Of a stretch of DNA of 64,000 nucleotides, positions 22,505-55,141 are shown one piece after another (the first letter of the stretch is position 1; each line of letters starts with the position of its first letter). The stretch is from Holophagae bacterium (GTDB taxonomy: Bacteria; Acidobacteriota; Holophagae; Acanthopleuribacterales; Acanthopleuribacteraceae): assembly GCA_029263455.1 (NCBI GenBank), contig JAJCXM010000032.1, positions 186,001-250,000 on the forward strand. Direction: 5' to 3'. Below the pieces are notes generated by a model. That model was not told the DNA's origin, made no database searches, and saw only the letters and a program-made list of their open reading frames with translations. The position numbers were made by a program, and so were the translations under genes.

Positions 22505-22619
22505 TTAATAGGGCTTCGAACGCCCCGATTACCGAATTTGCCATTGGATTAACGCTTCCGTCAGGTAAAATGAACGGTAATCATACTCTTAAAGTTTTGG
22601 CTTCTTGGCATGTGAGAAT

Positions 22620-25600
22620 ATGGATCAATTTTTCCAAGGCTCAGAAAAACGGCAACGTAAACGATTTAGACTGAGCCACAAGGCAGAGATCCAAGTTCAG
22701 GGTCAATTTTTTGAAGCTACATTAATCGATTTCAGTACCCGAGGCTTTTGTCTCGCGACAGCTGCAAATATTCCGAACGACGACAAGGTTCAGGTTGTTT
22801 TTTCGTTGCAGTCACCCAGAGATTGGGTTTTTCTAATTGCCATCGTCAACCAAAAATTGATGAACCAAAAAGGCTCTCAAGTGTCGCGCCTAGGTGTTCG
22901 CATTACAAGTTTTTCAAGTAACCCGGCTGCTTTTTTTGAACATTTAGTTCATTTGGTGAAAGTAGCACAAGCGGCACCTGTTGCGGCGAAACCCGTGGAA
23001 AAAACGGTTGTAGGACAAGTTACAGGTGCGACCCAATCAACTGAGAGCAAAAAAAAGGCGGGTACCAAGACAAAAAAGGAACATCGGACGGACAAACGTA
23101 TCCCATATTCGGCAGATGCCAAGATACGCATTGGGGAGAAAATATTTAAGGCAAGTGTGCATGACGTGAGTCAACGTGGGCTAAGTGTGCAGGCACCGAT
23201 GGAAATGCCGGTGTCAAAGCAAATGAACGTCCTGATTTTTATGCCAGATGGGGCTCGCCTACAGGTGGATGCGGTGGAGCGTGAACGACAGATCGTCGAA
23301 CAATCAGATGGTATCGGTCTGCGTTTGGGTTTACGTATCGTGCGTTCTGATGAGCAATTCAAGAAATTCTTTATTCATCTGCGTGATGACGAAGAACGGG
23401 ACGTTACGTTAAGGCAAACAGGTGCCCAAGATGACACAGGTAAAACGCATATCCTCTCGTCGGAACGTCATTTAGGCGATGCATCTTTTGGACTGCTAGG
23501 AAAACAGAAGTACAAGTTTATGAAGCCGTTAGGGAAGGGCGGGTTTGCTGAGGTTTACCTAGTTCGAGATTTGGCCTTGAACCGTGATGTCGCCATGAAG
23601 GTGCTAACGCCGAAATTTTCCAGTGATCCTAAGCTGAGTTCGCGATTTATTGCCGAGGCTCAGATCGCGGCCCAATTTGAACATGCACACATCGCCACGG
23701 TTTATGAGGTCGGCGACATTCCTAACCACGAATACAAGGAGAAACTGGACTTCCCGCCAGAGATTCTGGCAGCCTATGGCGCACGCATCGTCTATTTCAC
23801 CATGCAGTACATACAGGGTCACTCCATTGCTGAATTCATAAAGAATGAAGGGCGTCTTGATGGGAAGAGAACGCTGCTTTGGTCGTCGGCGGTTGCAAAG
23901 GCGCTCGCTTACGCCCACGAAAAAGGGGTGGTTCATCGAGATATAAAACCTGAAAACATCATGGTTACGTTGGAGAAACATGTGCTGGTGACCGACTTTG
24001 GGATCGCCAAAGTTTTGTCGCGCCAAGTGGACGATGATCCTGAGGTCGAAGGGTCTGTGGAGCAAGATAAGACGCGGGGTTTTATGGGGACACCTATCTA
24101 TGCGTCGCCAGAGCAAGTCGTGGCTGAAGGCATAGATGGTCGTTCAGACCTTTATAGTTTAGGCGTGATGATGTATGAAATGTTGCTTGGTCAACCTCCA
24201 TTCCGTGGCGAGCGATGGGTAGAAACCATAGCCATGCACCTACATAAGCTACCCGTACCCTTAATTGACCAAGATGCTCAGATTTCTTTGAACCTTTCCG
24301 ATCTTGTTATGAAGTGTTTAGAAAAAGACAAAGAGAATCGCTATCAGTCGGCGAGCGTATTTGTTGAAGCCATCGAAAAAGTGTATCTGTTCTTGCAACG
24401 TGGTGATATTGAGGTTGAAGCGCAGACGGCATTTGACGAAGATTCGTTTGAGCTAGTTAAGCGCCTATTCGTACAGTTTGGTAAAGCTTATCGAACGATT
24501 GGCACATACCCCGAAACGCACGATCTAGTGAAGCAAGCCACTACGGAGCTGTACAAACGTTTTGAAGCGTTCTTCGCTAAACACGAGCGGTTGGATATAA
24601 GAATAGAGTCCATGCGCATGATGTTCTTACATCAGACCATCTGGGAGGAGGACCAAAAAGAAAACGCTTTTTGTTTTAACCTCTTTCGCGACGGCATTCG
24701 CAAGCTTTTGTTTTTCAGAGGTATGCCTGCAGAAGAAATTGAATCTCTAATGATTCGCTTGTTTCGCTACGTCAATGACCATAGTAACTATGAAGAAGAC
24801 TCGGTGACGCTTCTGTTTCAGGCCGGTCTTCAATTTATTGACTTCGAATATGTGGATTCGTTTTACGAAGACGAGACGAGCCTGGCAAAAATACAACAGG
24901 TTCAAACTTATTGGTTGAATCGTTCGCCCTGGAAGTTTGCCGATCTTGCACAGCGATTACACCCCATCTCGGATGTTTTGGAACTAGAAAAACAAATCGA
25001 TCATTCATATAAGACCCTGCCGGTTGCTAAGTTGAAGCACTACCTGACAAAAGAAGTGGACCAAGCAATTCGACTTAAGGCGATCGACATCTTCCTCAGC
25101 CATTTACGTTTGGAAACCGATGTGGAGGATTTTGAAAGGCACTTCGCTGTACTAGAGGATGTGGTTTATTCGTGCCTCACTGAGAATGACCTAACGGCAG
25201 TACGCCAAATCTTCTCGGCACTGGAAATTTGGTCTCATGAAATCCCAGAATCCGACCCACGCCAAATGCACAAGCGACTCTTGTTACTTAAAGAACGAAT
25301 GTCACAACAGGATTTTCTAGATGAACTAATCGATAAATACTTTACGGTTGATCGTTCTACTAAAGACGCCATTTTTAATCTGTGTGAATTCATGCTGCCG
25401 AACATTGCGGTTAAGGTTATTTTTAATCGATTCAATACGGAAGTTGAAGAATGGCGCAAAATTTTCTTGAGCGAAATGGCGGTTATTGCAAGTGGGGCCA
25501 CTCTTACACCGCTGATCAAAATGTCGCTCAAACTGTCCGACGAACATGCCGCCATCATGTTGAACGGTTTTGCGCGCTCGAGCGATAAGCTTTCTAAAAG

Positions 25601-26105
25601 TGTATTCGATTCTTGGCTGAAGCACTCCGGCTCTCAGACTCGATTGCGCGTGGCACGTATGATTGCTGCCGCAAAAGATCCTGCCCTGCTTGATTTAATG
25701 ATTCGCATTGGGCGTGATCCTAATTTGAAATTCGAAGAATCGCGTCGCTATGCGTGGCGGTATATCGGTCAAGTTGCTAAGCCCAAGTTAGCGCCTATCG
25801 TTCTTGAGTTCATGAATTTGGACGTCTTTTTGCCATTGTCAGAAGACGAACGAAAAACAATTATTCAATACGCTGGAAAGTCAGGGGTCGACAAAAACTT
25901 CGATTTCTTAGTTGGGTTACTTAATGAACATGGCGCCTTTGGCCAAGGAAAAGCTGATTTGGAGGATCGCAAATTGGCGGCGACGATCCTGCTAAAAACG
26001 GGACAAAAAATAGGCCGAGAGGCGGTTGGCAAAATGGCAAAAAAATTAATTGGGAATCGCGATTTGATTAATCATTGTAAGCAACTTCTAGAGGCCAACT
26101 CGTGA
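22620..26105 (+). CDS. Tandem PilZ - Ser/Thr protein kinase - helical-repeat protein
   Basis: 1161 residues from the ATG at 22620 (a TTG at 22605 would add five). Two PilZ domains: the first has RQRKR (RxxxR) and DFSTRG (DxSxxG), residues about 8-110; the second has RTDKR and DVSQRG, residues about 155-260. Both motif pairs are those that bind cyclic di-GMP. A Hanks-type kinase follows (about 295-590): LGKGGFAEVYLV glycine loop, VAMKVL lysine, VVHRDIKPENIM catalytic loop, VTDFGIAKV, GTPIYASPEQ. The remaining 570 residues are helical, with HEAT-like stretches (TRLRVARMIAAAKDPALLDLMIRIG). The downstream gene overlaps by 4 bases. A kinase controlled by cyclic di-GMP is the natural inference. Confidence 0.88.
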   Translation: MDQFFQGSEKRQRKRFRLSHKAEIQVQGQFFEATLIDFSTRGFCLATAANIPNDDKVQVVFSLQSPRDWVFLIAIVNQKLMNQKGSQVSRLGVRITSFSSNPAAFFEHLVHLVKVAQAAPVAAKPVEKTVVGQVTGATQSTESKKKAGTKTKKEHRTDKRIPYSADAKIRIGEKIFKASVHDVSQRGLSVQAPMEMPVSKQMNVLIFMPDGARLQVDAVERERQIVEQSDGIGLRLGLRIVRSDEQFKKFFIHLRDDEERDVTLRQTGAQDDTGKTHILSSERHLGDASFGLLGKQKYKFMKPLGKGGFAEVYLVRDLALNRDVAMKVLTPKFSSDPKLSSRFIAEAQIAAQFEHAHIATVYEVGDIPNHEYKEKLDFPPEILAAYGARIVYFTMQYIQGHSIAEFIKNEGRLDGKRTLLWSSAVAKALAYAHEKGVVHRDIKPENIMVTLEKHVLVTDFGIAKVLSRQVDDDPEVEGSVEQDKTRGFMGTPIYASPEQVVAEGIDGRSDLYSLGVMMYEMLLGQPPFRGERWVETIAMHLHKLPVPLIDQDAQISLNLSDLVMKCLEKDKENRYQSASVFVEAIEKVYLFLQRGDIEVEAQTAFDEDSFELVKRLFVQFGKAYRTIGTYPETHDLVKQATTELYKRFEAFFAKHERLDIRIESMRMMFLHQTIWEEDQKENAFCFNLFRDGIRKLLFFRGMPAEEIESLMIRLFRYVNDHSNYEEDSVTLLFQAGLQFIDFEYVDSFYEDETSLAKIQQVQTYWLNRSPWKFADLAQRLHPISDVLELEKQIDHSYKTLPVAKLKHYLTKEVDQAIRLKAIDIFLSHLRLETDVEDFERHFAVLEDVVYSCLTENDLTAVRQIFSALEIWSHEIPESDPRQMHKRLLLLKERMSQQDFLDELIDKYFTVDRSTKDAIFNLCEFMLPNIAVKVIFNRFNTEVEEWRKIFLSEMAVIASGATLTPLIKMSLKLSDEHAAIMLNGFARSSDKLSKSVFDSWLKHSGSQTRLRVARMIAAAKDPALLDLMIRIGRDPNLKFEESRRYAWRYIGQVAKPKLAPIVLEFMNLDVFLPLSEDERKTIIQYAGKSGVDKNFDFLVGLLNEHGAFGQGKADLEDRKLAATILLKTGQKIGREAVGKMAKKLIGNRDLINHCKQLLEANS

Positions 26106-27514
26106 GTCCCGTGGGCGAGAAAGACCCCCGCCAGGAACGTATTCAGGTACTTGGCCGCTCTATGCTGTCTCACGTTCAACAGGTTTTCAGAAACGCAGAT
26201 CTGTTTGAGCCTAATAACCAAATTTTTGTTCGCTTAGCGCAGACCCTGGCCAATTACATTAAGGAATCCTATCGCCTTGTAGGCGGCTGTTCCATCCACG
26301 TCAATGCTCATCAGGTTTTTCTCGAAGATAGCCGCGTTTTCATTGACTCCGGTCTCATAGAAAGTGTGAATTTCTTGGCCAACCTGTTTGCGAGTGCCGA
26401 GGTAGGTGGCATCGTTTTCCATGAGGAATGTTGGGACCCAAAAGTCGTTATCAAGACTATGTTTGCATTGAGATCTACCATTTTGGATGACAAGGCTCGT
26501 GGTGAAGCGGCGATAAAAAAAGGGCTCATCCGCAGGCATAGTCCCTATGTAACAGTCATGAAGATGAGTACCGTTGAGACCACCATGACGGGTATCCGCG
26601 ACGAAGAGAATGCTCTGCGATTCACCTTTCGCAATGCTGCTAAACTGGCCTTGTTTGTAAAAGAAATGGATGACCGTATTCAGAACCAAGAACCGGTTCG
26701 CGTTAATGTAAGTTATCGACTGCTTTTGAATCTCATTCGCATAAACGAGCAATATCCACATTTCATCCATATGTTACTTGCCTGTCCCGAAGAGGATCGG
26801 GTGCGGGGCCGTATCTATTTCGGCGTCTTAATGGTTCTAGCGGTTTGTCACTATTTGAAACTTGAACGACAAACCCAAATCGATTTTGGCGTCGCGGCCC
26901 TGTTTCAATGTTTAGGTGAGCAACAGGTTCCACCCTCTATTCGAAACAGCGACCGCATAGAAGATTTTCGTGACGAATTACCCGATCGCGCGATTCGATG
27001 GTTGTTAGACAGTCGATTCGTTAATCGCTCGCTCTATTACCGCGCTGTAACCGCTTTCCAAACGCCGTTACGCCGAGACAATCCCGAAGAGACGCCTCTG
27101 CCCGCTGTCAGACTCTTGCGTGCCATTAACCACGTTGTCGAAGTCTGGAAGCTAAGCAGCCAGAGGCGTCCATTCCATGTGTGTATCCAACGGTTGCTGA
27201 CTTCAAACGATGTCACGGTTGACAAAGCATTTGTACTCATCATCGCTAAAACATTTGGTGTACTTCCGGCTTCAACGTTGGTAGCTGTTGATGAGAAGTT
27301 CATCGCCACTGTAACCGCGAATAGTAGCGAAACCATCAAGTTCACCTCAATTCCCGAATCACGGGTTGACAGTGTACGTAAGTTGGATTGGGACCGTAGA
27401 GATGCGCTTCGCAACGAAGAATTCAAGGTTCGATTGAAGTTGGTACTTGGCCAACAAGAATTGCCGAATAGCATGCCATCGCTCTTTTATTCAGGAGAGC
27501 AGCAACTTACCTAG
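26102..27514 (+). CDS. Helical partner protein, possibly a degenerate HD-GYP/HDOD-like domain
   Basis: 470 residues, starting at a GTG that overlaps the kinase stop (GTGA). The first 200 residues (RSMLSHVQQVFRNADLFEPNN, then SIHVNAHQVFLEDSRVFID) resemble the N-terminal part of proteins ending in an HD domain. The second half contains GRIYFGVLMVLAVCHYLKLERQTQIDFGVAALFQ, which sits where an HD-GYP helix would be, but no HD dyad is visible. It is therefore probably a non-catalytic HD-like fold. Strong translational coupling suggests that it works together with the PilZ-kinase. Not recognised as a named family. Confidence 0.55.
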   Translation: MSPVGEKDPRQERIQVLGRSMLSHVQQVFRNADLFEPNNQIFVRLAQTLANYIKESYRLVGGCSIHVNAHQVFLEDSRVFIDSGLIESVNFLANLFASAEVGGIVFHEECWDPKVVIKTMFALRSTILDDKARGEAAIKKGLIRRHSPYVTVMKMSTVETTMTGIRDEENALRFTFRNAAKLALFVKEMDDRIQNQEPVRVNVSYRLLLNLIRINEQYPHFIHMLLACPEEDRVRGRIYFGVLMVLAVCHYLKLERQTQIDFGVAALFQCLGEQQVPPSIRNSDRIEDFRDELPDRAIRWLLDSRFVNRSLYYRAVTAFQTPLRRDNPEETPLPAVRLLRAINHVVEVWKLSSQRRPFHVCIQRLLTSNDVTVDKAFVLIIAKTFGVLPASTLVAVDEKFIATVTANSSETIKFTSIPESRVDSVRKLDWDRRDALRNEEFKVRLKLVLGQQELPNSMPSLFYSGEQQLT

Positions 27515-27602: not shown

Positions 27603-28523
27603 TTGTTTTTCGAAGGATCTGAAAAAAAGTTTGAAATTGTCGTAAAGATAGGGCTTCCCTCTTTGCGAAGTCTCAAGTCCGAATGGCAACGTGTGGTGCT
27701 TGCGTCTGGTGCGCAAGTGCTTTCGGTTGTTAGCAATAGCGACTGCGACGCATATTTGTTGTCCGAATCGTCACTTTTTGTGTTTGATCAACGCGTCATC
27801 ATGATTACTTGTGGTCAGACAGCCTTAATACGGGCGGTGCAAACCGTCTTTACTTTTGTTCGCCGCCAAGACGTTGAGCTTTTCATTTATGAACGCAAGA
27901 ATGAGCACTTGCCCGAAAATCAATCGACCGACTTTGATGCTGATGTACGCATATTGAATGGGCTCATGCCAGGAAAGGCATATTGTTTTGGCGACCGGGA
28001 CGGGCATCATATCCGGCTGTATCATATGTTGGCTGACTACCACCCTGAACCTCAAGATACGACGTTAGAGATATTAATGCATGGTCTCGATCGTGAGTCG
28101 GCCGAGCTTTTCTTTGCCAGTCAAGGCATCACCTCCAGCGATGTCGGCATACGTTCTGGATTGACGCGTCTCTTTCCTGACTTTGAAAGTGATGGCTTTA
28201 TATTTGATCCGTTTGGTTATTCGTTAAATGCGATACACAAAAAGGAATACTACACGGTTCATGTCACGCCTCAAGTTGGTTGTTCCTATGCGAGTTTTGA
28301 AACCAATCGTCATTTACAAGGTGATGTCTCGCAGTTAGTTGACAAAGTTCTTGATATTTTTAAGCCCGAATTCTGTTTACTCATGTTGTTTGAGCGTGAA
28401 GATGGGAATTGTCGTTTAGGCGCGACCGATGTTGTTGATCACCGCATCTCACATGCCTTGGAATGCGGATACCGAGTGCATTTTGCGTCTTACAAAATGG
28501 ATTCGCATGCGTTGAATCGCTAG
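27603..28523 (+). CDS. speD: S-adenosylmethionine decarboxylase proenzyme, eukaryotic-type
   Basis: 306 residues, close to the eukaryotic length and unlike short bacterial SpeD. It decarboxylates AdoMet to supply aminopropyl groups. The N-terminus FFEGSEKKFEI matches the human opening, keeping both glutamates used in proenzyme processing. YLLSESSLFVFDQRV contains the self-cleavage site Glu55-Ser56; Ser56 becomes the pyruvoyl cofactor. The catalytic Cys70 is in MITCGQT. FDPFGYSLNAI (Ser207) and VHVTPQVGCSYASFETN (His220) supply the other processing residues. The TTG at 27603 is preceded by GGAGAG. speE follows after 42 bases. This class is unusual in bacteria. Confidence 0.92.
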   Translation: MFFEGSEKKFEIVVKIGLPSLRSLKSEWQRVVLASGAQVLSVVSNSDCDAYLLSESSLFVFDQRVIMITCGQTALIRAVQTVFTFVRRQDVELFIYERKNEHLPENQSTDFDADVRILNGLMPGKAYCFGDRDGHHIRLYHMLADYHPEPQDTTLEILMHGLDRESAELFFASQGITSSDVGIRSGLTRLFPDFESDGFIFDPFGYSLNAIHKKEYYTVHVTPQVGCSYASFETNRHLQGDVSQLVDKVLDIFKPEFCLLMLFEREDGNCRLGATDVVDHRISHALECGYRVHFASYKMDSHALNR

Positions 28524-28565
28524 AAATTTTTTAATCAAAAAGATTCGTCGTCAGGAGACCTGGAT

Positions 28566-29453
28566 ATGCAATCCGTTGAATCGAATACGCAGTTGTGGAT
28601 CGAAGAAATACATAAAGGAGTCTTGGGCCAAAGATTTCGTGTCCGTGACACGTTGTTCTCAGGACGCAGTGAATTCCAGACCGTTGACGTTGTCGATACC
28701 TATGGCCATGGCCGTATGCTCTTTATCGACGGGCTGGTGATGCTTTCAGAACGAGATGAGCACGTGTATCACGAGATGATCGCGCACGTCCCGTTGTTCT
28801 CACACCCCAAACCGCGTCATGTTTTGGTGATAGGCGGTGGAGATGGTGGAACGATTCGAGAGGTGGTTCGCCATCCTTATGTCGAAAGCGCGACATTGGT
28901 TGAAATTGACGAAATGGTGGTTGATGTTTCTCGAAAATATCTAAAGTCGACCTCTTGCTCATTGGACGACCCTCGAGTGACCGTGCGAATTGAAGACGGT
29001 TTGGCTTTTGTCAAACACTGCAAGCAGAAGTTTGATGTGGTTATTGTTGATTCCACCGACCCAATAGGGCCCGCAGCACCATTGTTTGGCTTAGATTTTT
29101 ATCGCGACGTAAAGTCTGTGCTGGCCGAGAACGGGATTGTTGTCTCTCAAGGCGAATCTCCATATTACGAACCAGATTGGCAAATCGCGCTGGCGAAATT
29201 ACTGGCGCAAGTCTTTCCTGATGTGTTTTTTTATAACTATCACAACATGACCTATCCAGGCGGACTATGGAGTTTTTCTTATGCGTCAACTGGTAGCCAC
29301 CCATTGCGCGACTTCAAGAAAGAACGTTGGCATGCGCTTAACTTGGAAACGAAATATTATGATCCCGAAATGCATCGAGCCGCGTTTGCGCTGCCTCGCG
29401 CCCAGAAAAAGGCTTTGAGTGCGTTTATTAACATTACCAATGATGACCAATAA
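28566..29453 (+). CDS. speE: Spermidine synthase
   Basis: 295 residues. It transfers the aminopropyl group from decarboxylated AdoMet to putrescine, releasing methylthioadenosine. The nucleotide-site motif VLVIGGGDGGTIREVVRH is intact, followed by TLVEIDEMVVDVSRKYL and the active-site FDVVIVDSTDPIGPAAPLF. YHEMIAHVPLFSHP and VVSQGESPYYEPDW also fit. The N-terminal segment (LWIEEIHKGVLGQRFRVRDTLFSGRSEFQ) forms the small beta domain. A good ribosome site (AGGAGA) precedes the start. The stop TAA overlaps the first base of the RuBisCO-like gene's ATG. Confidence 0.95.
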   Translation: MQSVESNTQLWIEEIHKGVLGQRFRVRDTLFSGRSEFQTVDVVDTYGHGRMLFIDGLVMLSERDEHVYHEMIAHVPLFSHPKPRHVLVIGGGDGGTIREVVRHPYVESATLVEIDEMVVDVSRKYLKSTSCSLDDPRVTVRIEDGLAFVKHCKQKFDVVIVDSTDPIGPAAPLFGLDFYRDVKSVLAENGIVVSQGESPYYEPDWQIALAKLLAQVFPDVFFYNYHNMTYPGGLWSFSYASTGSHPLRDFKKERWHALNLETKYYDPEMHRAAFALPRAQKKALSAFINITNDDQ

Positions 29454-30559
29454 TGACACAAACGGATAAGCGACTCGTCGTCCATTACGACGTCACCGGC
29501 GAAGGTGACCTGAAAGAGGCCGTCCATGCAATTGCCTTGGAGCAAACGGTCGAATTACCCCAAGACTTACTCAATGACAGCTGGATCGAAGCCCATGTTG
29601 TCGGTCGCATTGAGCATTGTGAGTCAAAGGGTCCCAAGCAATTGCGAGCTGTGATTTCGTATGATTTGGACACCGTAGGCGGTGAAACACCGCAGCTCCT
29701 TAATGTCTTGTTTGGCAATATTTCGCTGAAACATGGCATTAGGATTCTGGATGTTGAGGGGCTAGAGCACATCTTGCCAGGACCTCGATTAGGCATCGAA
29801 GGATTACGCAAGCGAGTTGGCGTTGAGAAAGGTGCGTTGATATGCACGGCACTCAAACCAATGGGCAAGTCAGCCGAGTATTTGGCTTCTATGGCCTACC
29901 AACTAGCCCTAGGGGGCATGGACCTGATCAAAGATGATCATGGCCTAAGTAATCAAAGTTATGCGCCCTTTCGGACCCGTGTGCGACTAATACAAGAAGC
30001 CGTTGATAAGGCCAATCGGGAAACCGGGCAACGATCAATCTATATACCTAATGTTGCTTCGCCGTTGGGCCGCCTTAACGCCGATCTTGAACTCTGTCAG
30101 ACGCTTGGCATCGAGATGATCATGGTCAGCCCATTTCTGATGGGATTGGACGTTTTTCGTCATATCGCTCAGCAAAACAAGTTCGCTATCTTGGCGCATC
30201 CGGCAATGAGCGGATCTCTTTTTGCCTCTAGCACCCATGGGATGTCTCCTCAATTTGTACTGGGCACTCTTTTTCGAGCGCTTGGAGCTGATGCGTCGAT
30301 ATACCCCAACGTGGGCGGACGTTTTGTATTTGAACAGGACGTTTGCCACCTGATTAACGACGCCTTACGAAATATGAGAGCTACTTTTAAGCCATCGTTT
30401 CCGGTCCCTGCTGGCGGCATGACATTGAATCGTGTTGACGAGATTCATGATGTCTATGGTCAAGAACTGATACACTTGATTGGCGGAGGATTGCTGCGAA
30501 CCAATCCAGATTTGCGGCTTGCGGCCCAGGCATTTAGGCAGGCCGTTAGACCTCAATAA
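29453..30559 (+). CDS. RuBisCO-like protein (form IV), probable methylthio-sugar phosphate isomerase
   Basis: 368 residues, shorter than true RuBisCO large subunits. CTALKPMGKS (Lys135) corresponds to the catalytic Lys in loop 1, and GGMDLIKDDHGL holds the carbamylatable Lys160 and Asp161-Asp162; the third metal-binding residue, normally Glu, is His163. AHPAMSGSLF and GADASIYPNVGGRF fit the barrel. The loop 6 lysine region is absent, so it should not fix carbon dioxide. Family members catalyse enolase or isomerase steps in methylthioadenosine salvage. The KDDHGL signature and neighbours speD, speE and a cupin suggest the Rhodospirillum-type 5-methylthioribulose 1-phosphate isomerase; other RLP roles (e.g. 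apionate metabolism) remain possible. Confidence 0.88.
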   Translation: MTQTDKRLVVHYDVTGEGDLKEAVHAIALEQTVELPQDLLNDSWIEAHVVGRIEHCESKGPKQLRAVISYDLDTVGGETPQLLNVLFGNISLKHGIRILDVEGLEHILPGPRLGIEGLRKRVGVEKGALICTALKPMGKSAEYLASMAYQLALGGMDLIKDDHGLSNQSYAPFRTRVRLIQEAVDKANRETGQRSIYIPNVASPLGRLNADLELCQTLGIEMIMVSPFLMGLDVFRHIAQQNKFAILAHPAMSGSLFASSTHGMSPQFVLGTLFRALGADASIYPNVGGRFVFEQDVCHLINDALRNMRATFKPSFPVPAGGMTLNRVDEIHDVYGQELIHLIGGGLLRTNPDLRLAAQAFRQAVRPQ

Positions 30560-30573
30560 GAAGGCGGGAACCC

Positions 30574-31050
30574 ATGATCGTTAGTCAAAACGGCACGCTT
30601 GAAACAACGCCCGAAAAAATGTTCGGAACCACGAGTAAAATTTTTCGGGCACAAGAATCTGGGGATTGGAAACACATTCCGGTGGAACCTTACAAGAAGG
30701 AATCCCAGACCTATCGCGGTATGACTCGTCGCGAGCTAGTCGGCAAACGGGGCGAGAAAACGAGTTTTCATTTGAGATATTTTGAGATTGAGAAGGGTGG
30801 CTATTCAACGTACGAACACCACCAACATGAACATGTTGTTTACATCACCAAGGGAACGGGTGAAGTGAGGCTCGGTTGCCGTTATATGACCGTTGGCGTT
30901 GGTGATGTGGTTTATGTAGGCCCCGATGATGCCCACCAGTTCTTGAACCCTAATAGCGATGAGCCATTTGGGTTTCTGTGTGTGGTGGACGCTGTGCGGG
31001 ACCGGCCTCGAGAAGTGGACGGTGAGGGTTTTTGCGAGATATGCGAATGA
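30574..31050 (+). CDS. Cupin protein, candidate methylthioxylulose 5-phosphate methylsulfurylase
   Basis: 158 residues with one complete cupin. Motif 1 is GGYSTYEHHQHEHVVYITKG (metal-binding histidines plus following residues) and motif 2 is GDVVYVGPDDAHQFLN. The first 55 residues are a basic, less conserved extension. It lies 14 bases after the RuBisCO-like gene with AGGCGGGA upstream. In R. rubrum a cupin next to the RuBisCO-like gene removes the methylthio group from 1-methylthioxylulose 5-phosphate to yield 1-deoxyxylulose 5-phosphate; by position this is the likely counterpart, although small cupins are functionally diverse. Two cysteines at the C-terminus (GFCEICE) may be of interest for thiol chemistry. 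Confidence 0.75.
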   Translation: MIVSQNGTLETTPEKMFGTTSKIFRAQESGDWKHIPVEPYKKESQTYRGMTRRELVGKRGEKTSFHLRYFEIEKGGYSTYEHHQHEHVVYITKGTGEVRLGCRYMTVGVGDVVYVGPDDAHQFLNPNSDEPFGFLCVVDAVRDRPREVDGEGFCEICE

Positions 31051-37902: not shown

Positions 37903-39072
37903 TTATCCCTTTGAATTCTCCAAACGTGAAACAACGCCAAGGCCAAACTTACGTGTTTGTTTGTCTAGATCAAGTATTTCGTCAAGACTGGATGCTCTGC
38001 GGTGAGCCATTTTTTCGAGGCACGCAGCGTTGATGCGGTGAATATCCGTGAACTTGACGCGTTCATCTAAGAACGCTTGGACGGCTATTTCGTTGCCCGC
38101 ATTTAGGATGGCCGGAGCGTTACCACCCATCAACAATGCATCGTAGGCCAGCTGTGAGCAGGGAAACTTGCTGCGATCTACTTTGAAGAAATCCAACTTG
38201 GCACCTTTGGTAATGTCAAAGCCCTTGAATGGGTTCTGGACGCGATCGGGATACGTCAGCGCGTACTGGATAGGATGAACCATGTCGGTATTTCCAAGTT
38301 GACAGATATAAGAATTGTCAATGAATTCGATCATCGAATGAACGATGGATTGAGGGTGGATCACAATGTCGATTTCGTTGGGGGAGAAGCCGAAAAGATA
38401 ATGCGCTTCGATGACTTCTAAGCCTTTGTTCATCAAAGTCGCACTGTCGATGGAAATTTTTTTTCCCATATCCCATGTCGGATGCTTGAGCGCTTGGGCA
38501 GGGGTGATCTGATTGAAGTCGCCCTCGAATTCGCGAAAAGGCCCGCCCGAAGCGGTTAGAATGAGCCGTTTAACTTCTTCACGTTTTGCGCCGTGTAAAC
38601 ATTGATGCAAAGCATTGTGCTCGGAGTCGACCGGCAATATTTCGACGCCTTTTTCCTTGGCCAACTGATTCATGAGTCTGCCGGCAACAACCATGGCTTC
38701 TTTATTGGCAAGGGCGATGTTAGAACCAGATTCGATGGCAGCAATGGTTGGTCGTAAACCGGCCGCCCCAACGATGGCAGAAACGGTCAGGTTGACGCGT
38801 AATTTACGCACCACTCGTTCAAGCTGTTCGGGTCCTTGGATGACACGGATTTTTTTATCGCCAATTTGATTCTTTAACCAAGCAGCATCAAAGTCCCGTG
38901 TAATGTAGATCCAATCCGGCGTGAACTCCATGGCTTGCTGCAACAGGCGTTCACGTTGTCGATTGGCAGCCAATAATTTGATCTGAAAGCGACCGGGAAA
39001 TGCACGTACAACCTTGAGCGTGGATTGTCCTATCGATCCAGTGGAGCCAAGGATTGAAATAATTTTTTTCAT
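37903..39072 (-). CDS. dxr: 1-deoxy-D-xylulose 5-phosphate reductoisomerase
   Basis: 389 residues. It converts DXP to methylerythritol 4-phosphate with NADPH, the committed step of the MEP isoprenoid pathway. The NADPH site is ISILGSTGSIGQSTLKVV. Substrate and metal residues lie in ALANKEAMVVAGRLM, ILPVDSEHNALHQCL, LTASGGPFREF, MGKKISIDSATLMNKGLEVIEAH and NAGNEIAVQAFLD. Part of a uppS-cdsA-dxr cluster that is widely conserved; a speD-speE-RLP-cupin operon which may produce DXP sits 7 kb upstream. Confidence 0.96.
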   Translation of the reverse strand: MKKIISILGSTGSIGQSTLKVVRAFPGRFQIKLLAANRQRERLLQQAMEFTPDWIYITRDFDAAWLKNQIGDKKIRVIQGPEQLERVVRKLRVNLTVSAIVGAAGLRPTIAAIESGSNIALANKEAMVVAGRLMNQLAKEKGVEILPVDSEHNALHQCLHGAKREEVKRLILTASGGPFREFEGDFNQITPAQALKHPTWDMGKKISIDSATLMNKGLEVIEAHYLFGFSPNEIDIVIHPQSIVHSMIEFIDNSYICQLGNTDMVHPIQYALTYPDRVQNPFKGFDITKGAKLDFFKVDRSKFPCSQLAYDALLMGGNAPAILNAGNEIAVQAFLDERVKFTDIHRINAACLEKMAHRRASSLDEILDLDKQTRKFGLGVVSRLENSKG

Positions 39073-54349: not shown

Positions 54350-55141
54350 GTGCGTAGTTCACTTTCGATTATCGATTATCTCAACGCATTGCCCTTGAAC
54401 CTCGCGTTCAAGGACCATGTCTTTGGCGACCAGATCGGGTTGACGTTCGATTACCCATCCCAATGTGCGGATAACCTGGCCGCGGGTCGCGTAGATGGCG
54501 GTCTTATCTCGTCCATCGAATACCAACGCATTCCTAATTTGACCATTGCGCCCGGGATCTGTATCGCCGCCAAGAAAAGGGTCAAATCGGTTGTTATCGT
54601 TTCTCGAAAGGCGCTTGAAGATGTTGAGATGATCGCCGTGGACCGCTTCTCGCGATCCTCTGTCACCCTAGTCGAAATCCTTTTTTGGCGCCAATTCAAA
54701 AGACGTTTGAAGATCGTGGCAATGGCACCTGATCGAGAAGCTATGTTAGCAGTTGCCGACGCGGCCCTCATCATTGGCGATGCCGCGTTGCGGTTGTCGC
54801 CCAGTGATGAGGCGATTCATGATCTGGCGGCCTGGTGGTATGCGGAAACAGGTCTATCGTTTGTGTTTGCGTTTTGGGCTTTACGTGAAAATGACAACGA
54901 CCGTTGGCTAGCCAGTTGTCTCACCGATGCTAAAGAATATGGTAAACGTCATTTGAGTGAGCGCTGGGATGCGGCGGCCCGGCGTTGGGGCATCGCTGAA
55001 AGCGATATTGAACATTACCTCACACAGGTGATCCAATATGACATGGGCGATGAAGAGCACAAAAGCTTGGAAACCTATTATCGCTACGCTAAGGAATGCG
55101 GTGCCATTGCCCATATAAAACCATTACGATTTACGGGCTAG
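54350..55141 (+). CDS. mqnA: Chorismate dehydratase (MqnA)
   Basis: 263 residues. It converts chorismate to 3-enolpyruvyl-benzoate, first step of the futalosine route to menaquinone. The opening SIIDYLNALPLNLAF, GRVDGGLISSIEYQRI, CIAAKKRVKSVVIVSRK and ALIIGDAALRLSP are family motifs. The GTG at 54350 follows the SNF gene closely. mqnB, mqnC and mqnD are not in the window. The 3' end overlaps the convergent orphan gene by 11 bases. Confidence 0.88.
   Translation: MRSSLSIIDYLNALPLNLAFKDHVFGDQIGLTFDYPSQCADNLAAGRVDGGLISSIEYQRIPNLTIAPGICIAAKKRVKSVVIVSRKALEDVEMIAVDRFSRSSVTLVEILFWRQFKRRLKIVAMAPDREAMLAVADAALIIGDAALRLSPSDEAIHDLAAWWYAETGLSFVFAFWALRENDNDRWLASCLTDAKEYGKRHLSERWDAAARRWGIAESDIEHYLTQVIQYDMGDEEHKSLETYYRYAKECGAIAHIKPLRFTG

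Follow-up and report, generated by a model that had tools for sequence, protein, structure and literature searches.

The MTA-isoprenoid shunt, which converts methylthioadenosine (MTA) into 1-deoxyxylulose 5-phosphate (DXP), has been described in R. rubrum and R. palustris (PMC4958253, PMC5893883). In R. rubrum the genes are those of a RuBisCO-like protein (RLP, Rru_A1998), a cupin (Rru_A2000), mtnA (Rru_A0360), and mtnP (Rru_A0361) (PMC4958253); the R. palustris counterparts include rlp1 (RPA2169) and a cupin gene (RPA2170) (PMC5893883). Rru_A2000 is the methylthioxylulose-5-phosphate sulfurylase (methylsulfurylase) of R. rubrum, an organism that runs the shunt yet has two DXP synthase isozymes (PMC4958253). 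A survey has also turned up five genomes without Dxs in which both shunt enzymes occur (PMC10663253). The other system to keep in mind is MtnW (YkrW), the DK-MTP-1-phosphate enolase of Bacillus and Geobacillus (2oek, 2zvi), which has the RuBisCO fold and a methionine-salvage context in common with the protein discussed below, but belongs to another clade, carries a KDDE motif, and catalyzes another reaction.

Here, we consider a locus in a Holophagae genome (Acidobacteriota, Acanthopleuribacteraceae), within a 64,000-nucleotide stretch of one contig that we call the window. As in the purple bacteria, an RLP and a cupin of the same families are encoded as an adjacent or near-adjacent pair, mtnP and mtnA are encoded separately, and classical mtnB and mtnC were not found; unlike in those systems, the pair shares a predicted operon with speD and speE. 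We think it likely that the four genes form one operon, combining polyamine synthesis with recycling of its by-product through the MTA-isoprenoid shunt. This chemistry is familiar from purple bacteria, and its linkage to MTA-making genes appears to be new: among open-licence PMC papers, searched by title and abstract, we found no earlier account of an RLP linked to spermidine synthase.

In the ORF list of the window, speD, speE, the RLP gene, and the cupin gene lie in tandem at 27603-31050 (Table 1). Between speD and speE there is a 42-base gap, speE and the RLP gene overlap by one base (TAATG), and a 14-base gap precedes the cupin gene; the gene set and both RLP junctions are as the first-pass annotation had given them. 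The assigned start codon of speD has GGAGAG ahead of it and an in-frame TGA just upstream. From the sequence we infer that the four genes are co-transcribed; promoter and Rfam scans found no operon-specific regulator. Directly upstream lie a large PilZ-like/serine-threonine kinase ORF and then a 470-aa ORF without a Pfam match. The latter gene keeps its place in a second genome of the same genus (G004), where it is preceded by a 1164-aa ORF.

Table 1. Features discussed in the text. Positions are those of the window unless a locus (L number) is named.
Feature	Position	Strand	Size and basis
PilZ-like/serine-threonine kinase ORF, then ORF without Pfam match	22605-27514		second ORF 470 aa
speD	27603-28523	+	306 aa, TTG start, LSESS self-cleavage motif; PF01536
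speE, spermidine synthase / aminopropyltransferase	28566-29453	+	295 aa; TIGR00417 and NF002010 above cut-off
RLP, KDDH (DeepYkr-type) clade, probable 5-methylthioribulose-1-phosphate 1,3-isomerase	29453-30559	+	368 aa; 3qfw, tree, invariant residues
Cupin, probable 1-methylthioxylulose-5-phosphate methylsulfurylase	30574-31050	+	158 aa, C-terminal CxxC; 3ibm/3kgz/3jzv
CxxC of the cupin	31033-31044		C154 and C157
dxr, DXP reductoisomerase	37903-39072	-	PF02670, PF08436, PF13288
MqnA-like ORF	54350-55141	+	likeness by eye
RLP gene divergent from speD–speE, G397	L074 4079-7093
RLP gene divergent from speD–speE, G123	L087 8007-11035
Transketolase-linked RLP loci	L009 4985-9113; L012 1-4117; L010 4027-7095; L011 1086-4181; L073; L075; L076; L077
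PfkB-family sugar kinase gene	L003 2367-3272 (contig C26)
Futalosine hydrolase gene and MqnD-like gene	L004 653-2106 (contig C12)	-	hydrolase above cut-off; MqnD likeness by eye

The first gene product matches SAM_decarbox in Pfam (PF01536, 1.4e-70) and scores 182.7 bits with TIGR00535 of NCBIfam, under the cut-off of 233. When aligned with the solved proenzyme (1jl0/1msv), its FFEG, LSESS, and TCG motifs match, and by these sequence features it is an AdoMet decarboxylase proenzyme of the eukaryotic type, not of the short bacterial type. Eukaryotic-type speD genes also occur at loci L019, L020, L074, and L087; PF01536 was shown for the window and for G003, a genome of another genus of the order, and the remaining loci were assigned by similarity. 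SpeE matches Spermine_synth (2.4e-66) in Pfam, in addition to its NCBIfam assignment. Its acceptor is probably putrescine and its product spermidine, and MTA is set free whenever an aminopropyl group is taken from decarboxylated S-adenosylmethionine.

The RLP (RuBisCO_large, 1.8e-28 in Pfam) falls far under the RuBisCO equivalog cut-offs of NCBIfam. Its best solved relative is 3qfw (2.1e-73), which we take to be the R. palustris RLP enzyme, with the MtnW structure 2oek well behind (5e-44). In a tree of 31 rows, from which the R. rubrum RLP sequence itself is absent, the window RLP groups with 3qfw and the cupin-linked RLPs in a clade split from the MtnW and Photo RLPs at 97/97, in keeping with the assignment made at first pass. 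This clade has two halves, one holding RLPs linked to a split transketolase (97/93) and the other (93/86) holding the window RLP, 3qfw, and every RLP found beside a cupin or speDE; the finer forks within the 93/86 half are weak, and the position of 3qfw there is weakly supported.

Residues 160-165 read KDDHGL, giving Lys-Asp-Asp-His where RuBisCO has Lys-Asp-Asp-Glu. The remaining active-site lysine and histidine are retained as well, and K160, D161, D162, H163, K135, and H249 are invariant. KDDH is found in the clade of the window RLP (one member has KDDQ), and KDDE in the MtnW and Photo RLPs; a few KDDH-clade members have Q for H, or S or N for G. The variant reported in the first-pass annotation is thus present, but it is not private to this protein: KDDH is the signature of the whole clade, and we have dropped the idea of a special variant.

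The cupin (Cupin_2, 1.7e-11 in Pfam) has as its three best solved relatives 3ibm (1.1e-27), 3kgz (4.3e-22), and 3jzv (6.6e-20), the last of which carries the name Rru_A2000. When cupins of the family are aligned, the window protein retains the histidines of HxHxH as well as the HQF further on. It differs from the described shunt cupins in a C-terminal CxxC, which is found in the cupins of all three four-gene operons; eight other cupins of the family lack it, as do the aligned parts of three solved ones. The solved sequences were cut by the alignment, and 3ibm has a single C at this site. In R. rubrum the thiol for the cupin step is glutathione. Our guess would be that the cysteine pair serves as a built-in thiol for removal of the methylthio group.

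The rest of the genome (6.25 Mb) was searched gene by gene with profiles and curated cut-offs, and it is important to remember that the absences below rest on its 95% completeness. Both genes that the first-pass annotation predicted to lie outside the window are there: mtnA on contig C1 (TIGR00512, 437 bits, cut-off 279) and mtnP on contig C26 (TIGR01694, 327 bits, cut-off 275). They thus sit on two contigs, whereas in R. rubrum and R. palustris they are neighbors by locus number. The final stretch of mtnP is shared with a gene for a PfkB-family sugar kinase. The diagnostic genes of the classical salvage set, expected to be missing, are not found in this 95% complete genome: mtnC and mtnD (ARD) have no match, and no gene reaches the mtnB cut-off, since the class II aldolase family has just two members here and both score far below it. 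mtnE encodes a general aminotransferase and is no diagnostic gene. With the window RLP as the sole RuBisCO-fold gene of the genome, mtnW can be excluded. The two PF00596 genes score best with PRK07044 and aldolase/short-chain-dehydrogenase fusion models, which makes the aldolase (Ald2/DHAP) route unlikely.

For the later steps, dxs is present on contig C8, and dxr lies in the window in a uppS–cdsA–dxr block, about 7 kb from the operon, on the opposite strand and outside it. On the sulfur side, unlike in the purple bacterial systems, none of the four clear PF01053 genes reaches the cut-off for O-acetylhomoserine sulfhydrylase, as scored on matched stretches and not full proteins; one of them is a cystathionine gamma-synthase by cut-off. 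A glutathione-synthetase homologue on the contig of the window is most like glutathione synthase, with 172 residues scored, under full-length cut-offs. On paper, the predicted DXP half of the pathway is complete and the methionine half is not. In addition, a futalosine hydrolase gene adjoins an MqnD-like gene, and the window holds an MqnA-like ORF; menaquinone is probably made via the futalosine route.

The sequence itself shows the order of the genes, their families, the clade of the RLP, the content of the genome, and the conserved linkage; from these we infer the individual catalytic activities, the donor of the thiol, and what becomes of methanethiol. SpeD would decarboxylate S-adenosylmethionine, and SpeE would release MTA while passing on the aminopropyl group, with putrescine as the probable acceptor and spermidine as the resulting product. 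MtnP would then split MTA into adenine and 5-methylthioribose-1-phosphate, which MtnA would convert to 5-methylthioribulose-1-phosphate. The RLP is predicted to carry out a 1,3-isomerization of this sugar to 1-methylthioxylulose-5-phosphate, and the cupin a thiol-dependent removal of the methylthio group to yield DXP, which would pass through Dxr to isoprenoids.

The first-pass annotation had proposed that polyamine synthesis feeds isoprenoid synthesis. The MTA-to-DXP route on which this depends is supported; its role as a main route is not, and we read it as a salvage by-flow. Each aminopropyl transfer could yield one DXP at most, the genome has dxs, and R. rubrum has Dxs isozymes too, all of which weaken the notion of feeding. 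The presence of dxs also rules out the shunt as a DXP supply that replaces Dxs. The shunt therefore more likely serves to dispose of MTA and to salvage its ribose carbon, and perhaps its sulfur, than to be the main supply of DXP.

Some alternatives deserve careful inspection. The one that survives best, although we consider it improbable, is that the RLP and the cupin use another substrate, such as 5-deoxyribulose-1-phosphate from 5'-deoxyadenosine, and that their place next to speDE has some other cause. Radical SAM enzymes form 5'-deoxyadenosine as a by-product, and 1,3-isomerization of 5-deoxyribulose-1-phosphate would yield DXP directly. The fold clade may also have more than one purpose, since the RLP genes of the sister half (97/93) have a split transketolase (tktN, tktC) next to them, with mtnA at two loci, and no cupin. 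Against this, speE yields MTA and not 5'-deoxyadenosine, and a demethylthiolating cupin, which only a methylthio sugar would call for, accompanies the RLP in three of three four-gene operons.

The sister clade merits a comment in its own right. Its RLPs are 40-46% identical to the window RLP and have the split transketolase as neighbor in place of the cupin, without speDE; the two loci beside mtnA are also near genes for a SorC-type sugar-binding regulator or a sugar ABC transporter. There, a transketolase may take the cupin's place in processing the product of the RLP. A search of open-licence PMC papers for RLP, transketolase, and methylthioribulose together found nothing.

A further alternative is that speDE and the RLP–cupin pair are two functional units, neighbors by descent or chance without a shared purpose. 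The genome of the window and G004 are of the same genus and have the whole region in common, and a promoter scan of the operon gave a result no better than chance, both of which fit such a reading. Conservation beyond the genus makes it very unlikely. An RLP is present in three of the seven genomes compared from the order, always in the order speD–speE–RLP–cupin, and the third carrier, G003, keeps exactly these four genes between different flanks, with gaps of 3, 13, and 0 bases. The same order with small gaps in two other genomes is not what chance would give. Across the phylum, 19 of 396 sampled genomes have an RLP of this kind (E < 1e-79). Adding G003 gives 20 contexts: the four-gene operon (3), an RLP gene divergent from speD–speE (2), RLP–cupin without spe genes (7), a split transketolase (4), and none of these (4). 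The two divergent cases, G397 and G123, both come from one other family of the phylum; there the RLP gene and speD–speE are arranged head to head, and no cupin is found beside the RLP gene at the locus, a point against the shunt reading. Two separate arrangements of an RLP with speDE argue against chance neighbors.

That the RLP is instead an MtnW of classical, oxygen-dependent methionine salvage is close to refuted: its top NCBIfam models are indeed MtnW, but at 196 and 159 bits it is far under the cut-offs of 409 and 514, its motif is KDDH and not KDDE, the tree sets it apart, and the search of the genome turned up none of its partners mtnB, mtnC, and mtnD.

Returning to the reading of one operon that makes and recycles MTA, it can be taken a step further. 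The locus might be a self-contained module that expresses the production of MTA jointly with its conversion to DXP, the CxxC of the cupin perhaps making glutathione unneeded; RLPs would then have become coupled to speDE on at least two occasions within the phylum, in two arrangements. We regard this fuller version as speculative and rather unlikely as a whole.

The names given to RLPs usually rest on distant similarity. In this case, the neighborhood itself supplies the source of the substrate, MTA, and so ties this RLP group to the recycling of a polyamine by-product. An oxygen-independent salvage route that was worked out genetically in purple bacteria would thereby extend to a little-studied phylum, and whether the shunt serves mainly for MTA disposal in polyamine synthesis or for isoprenoid supply becomes a testable question.
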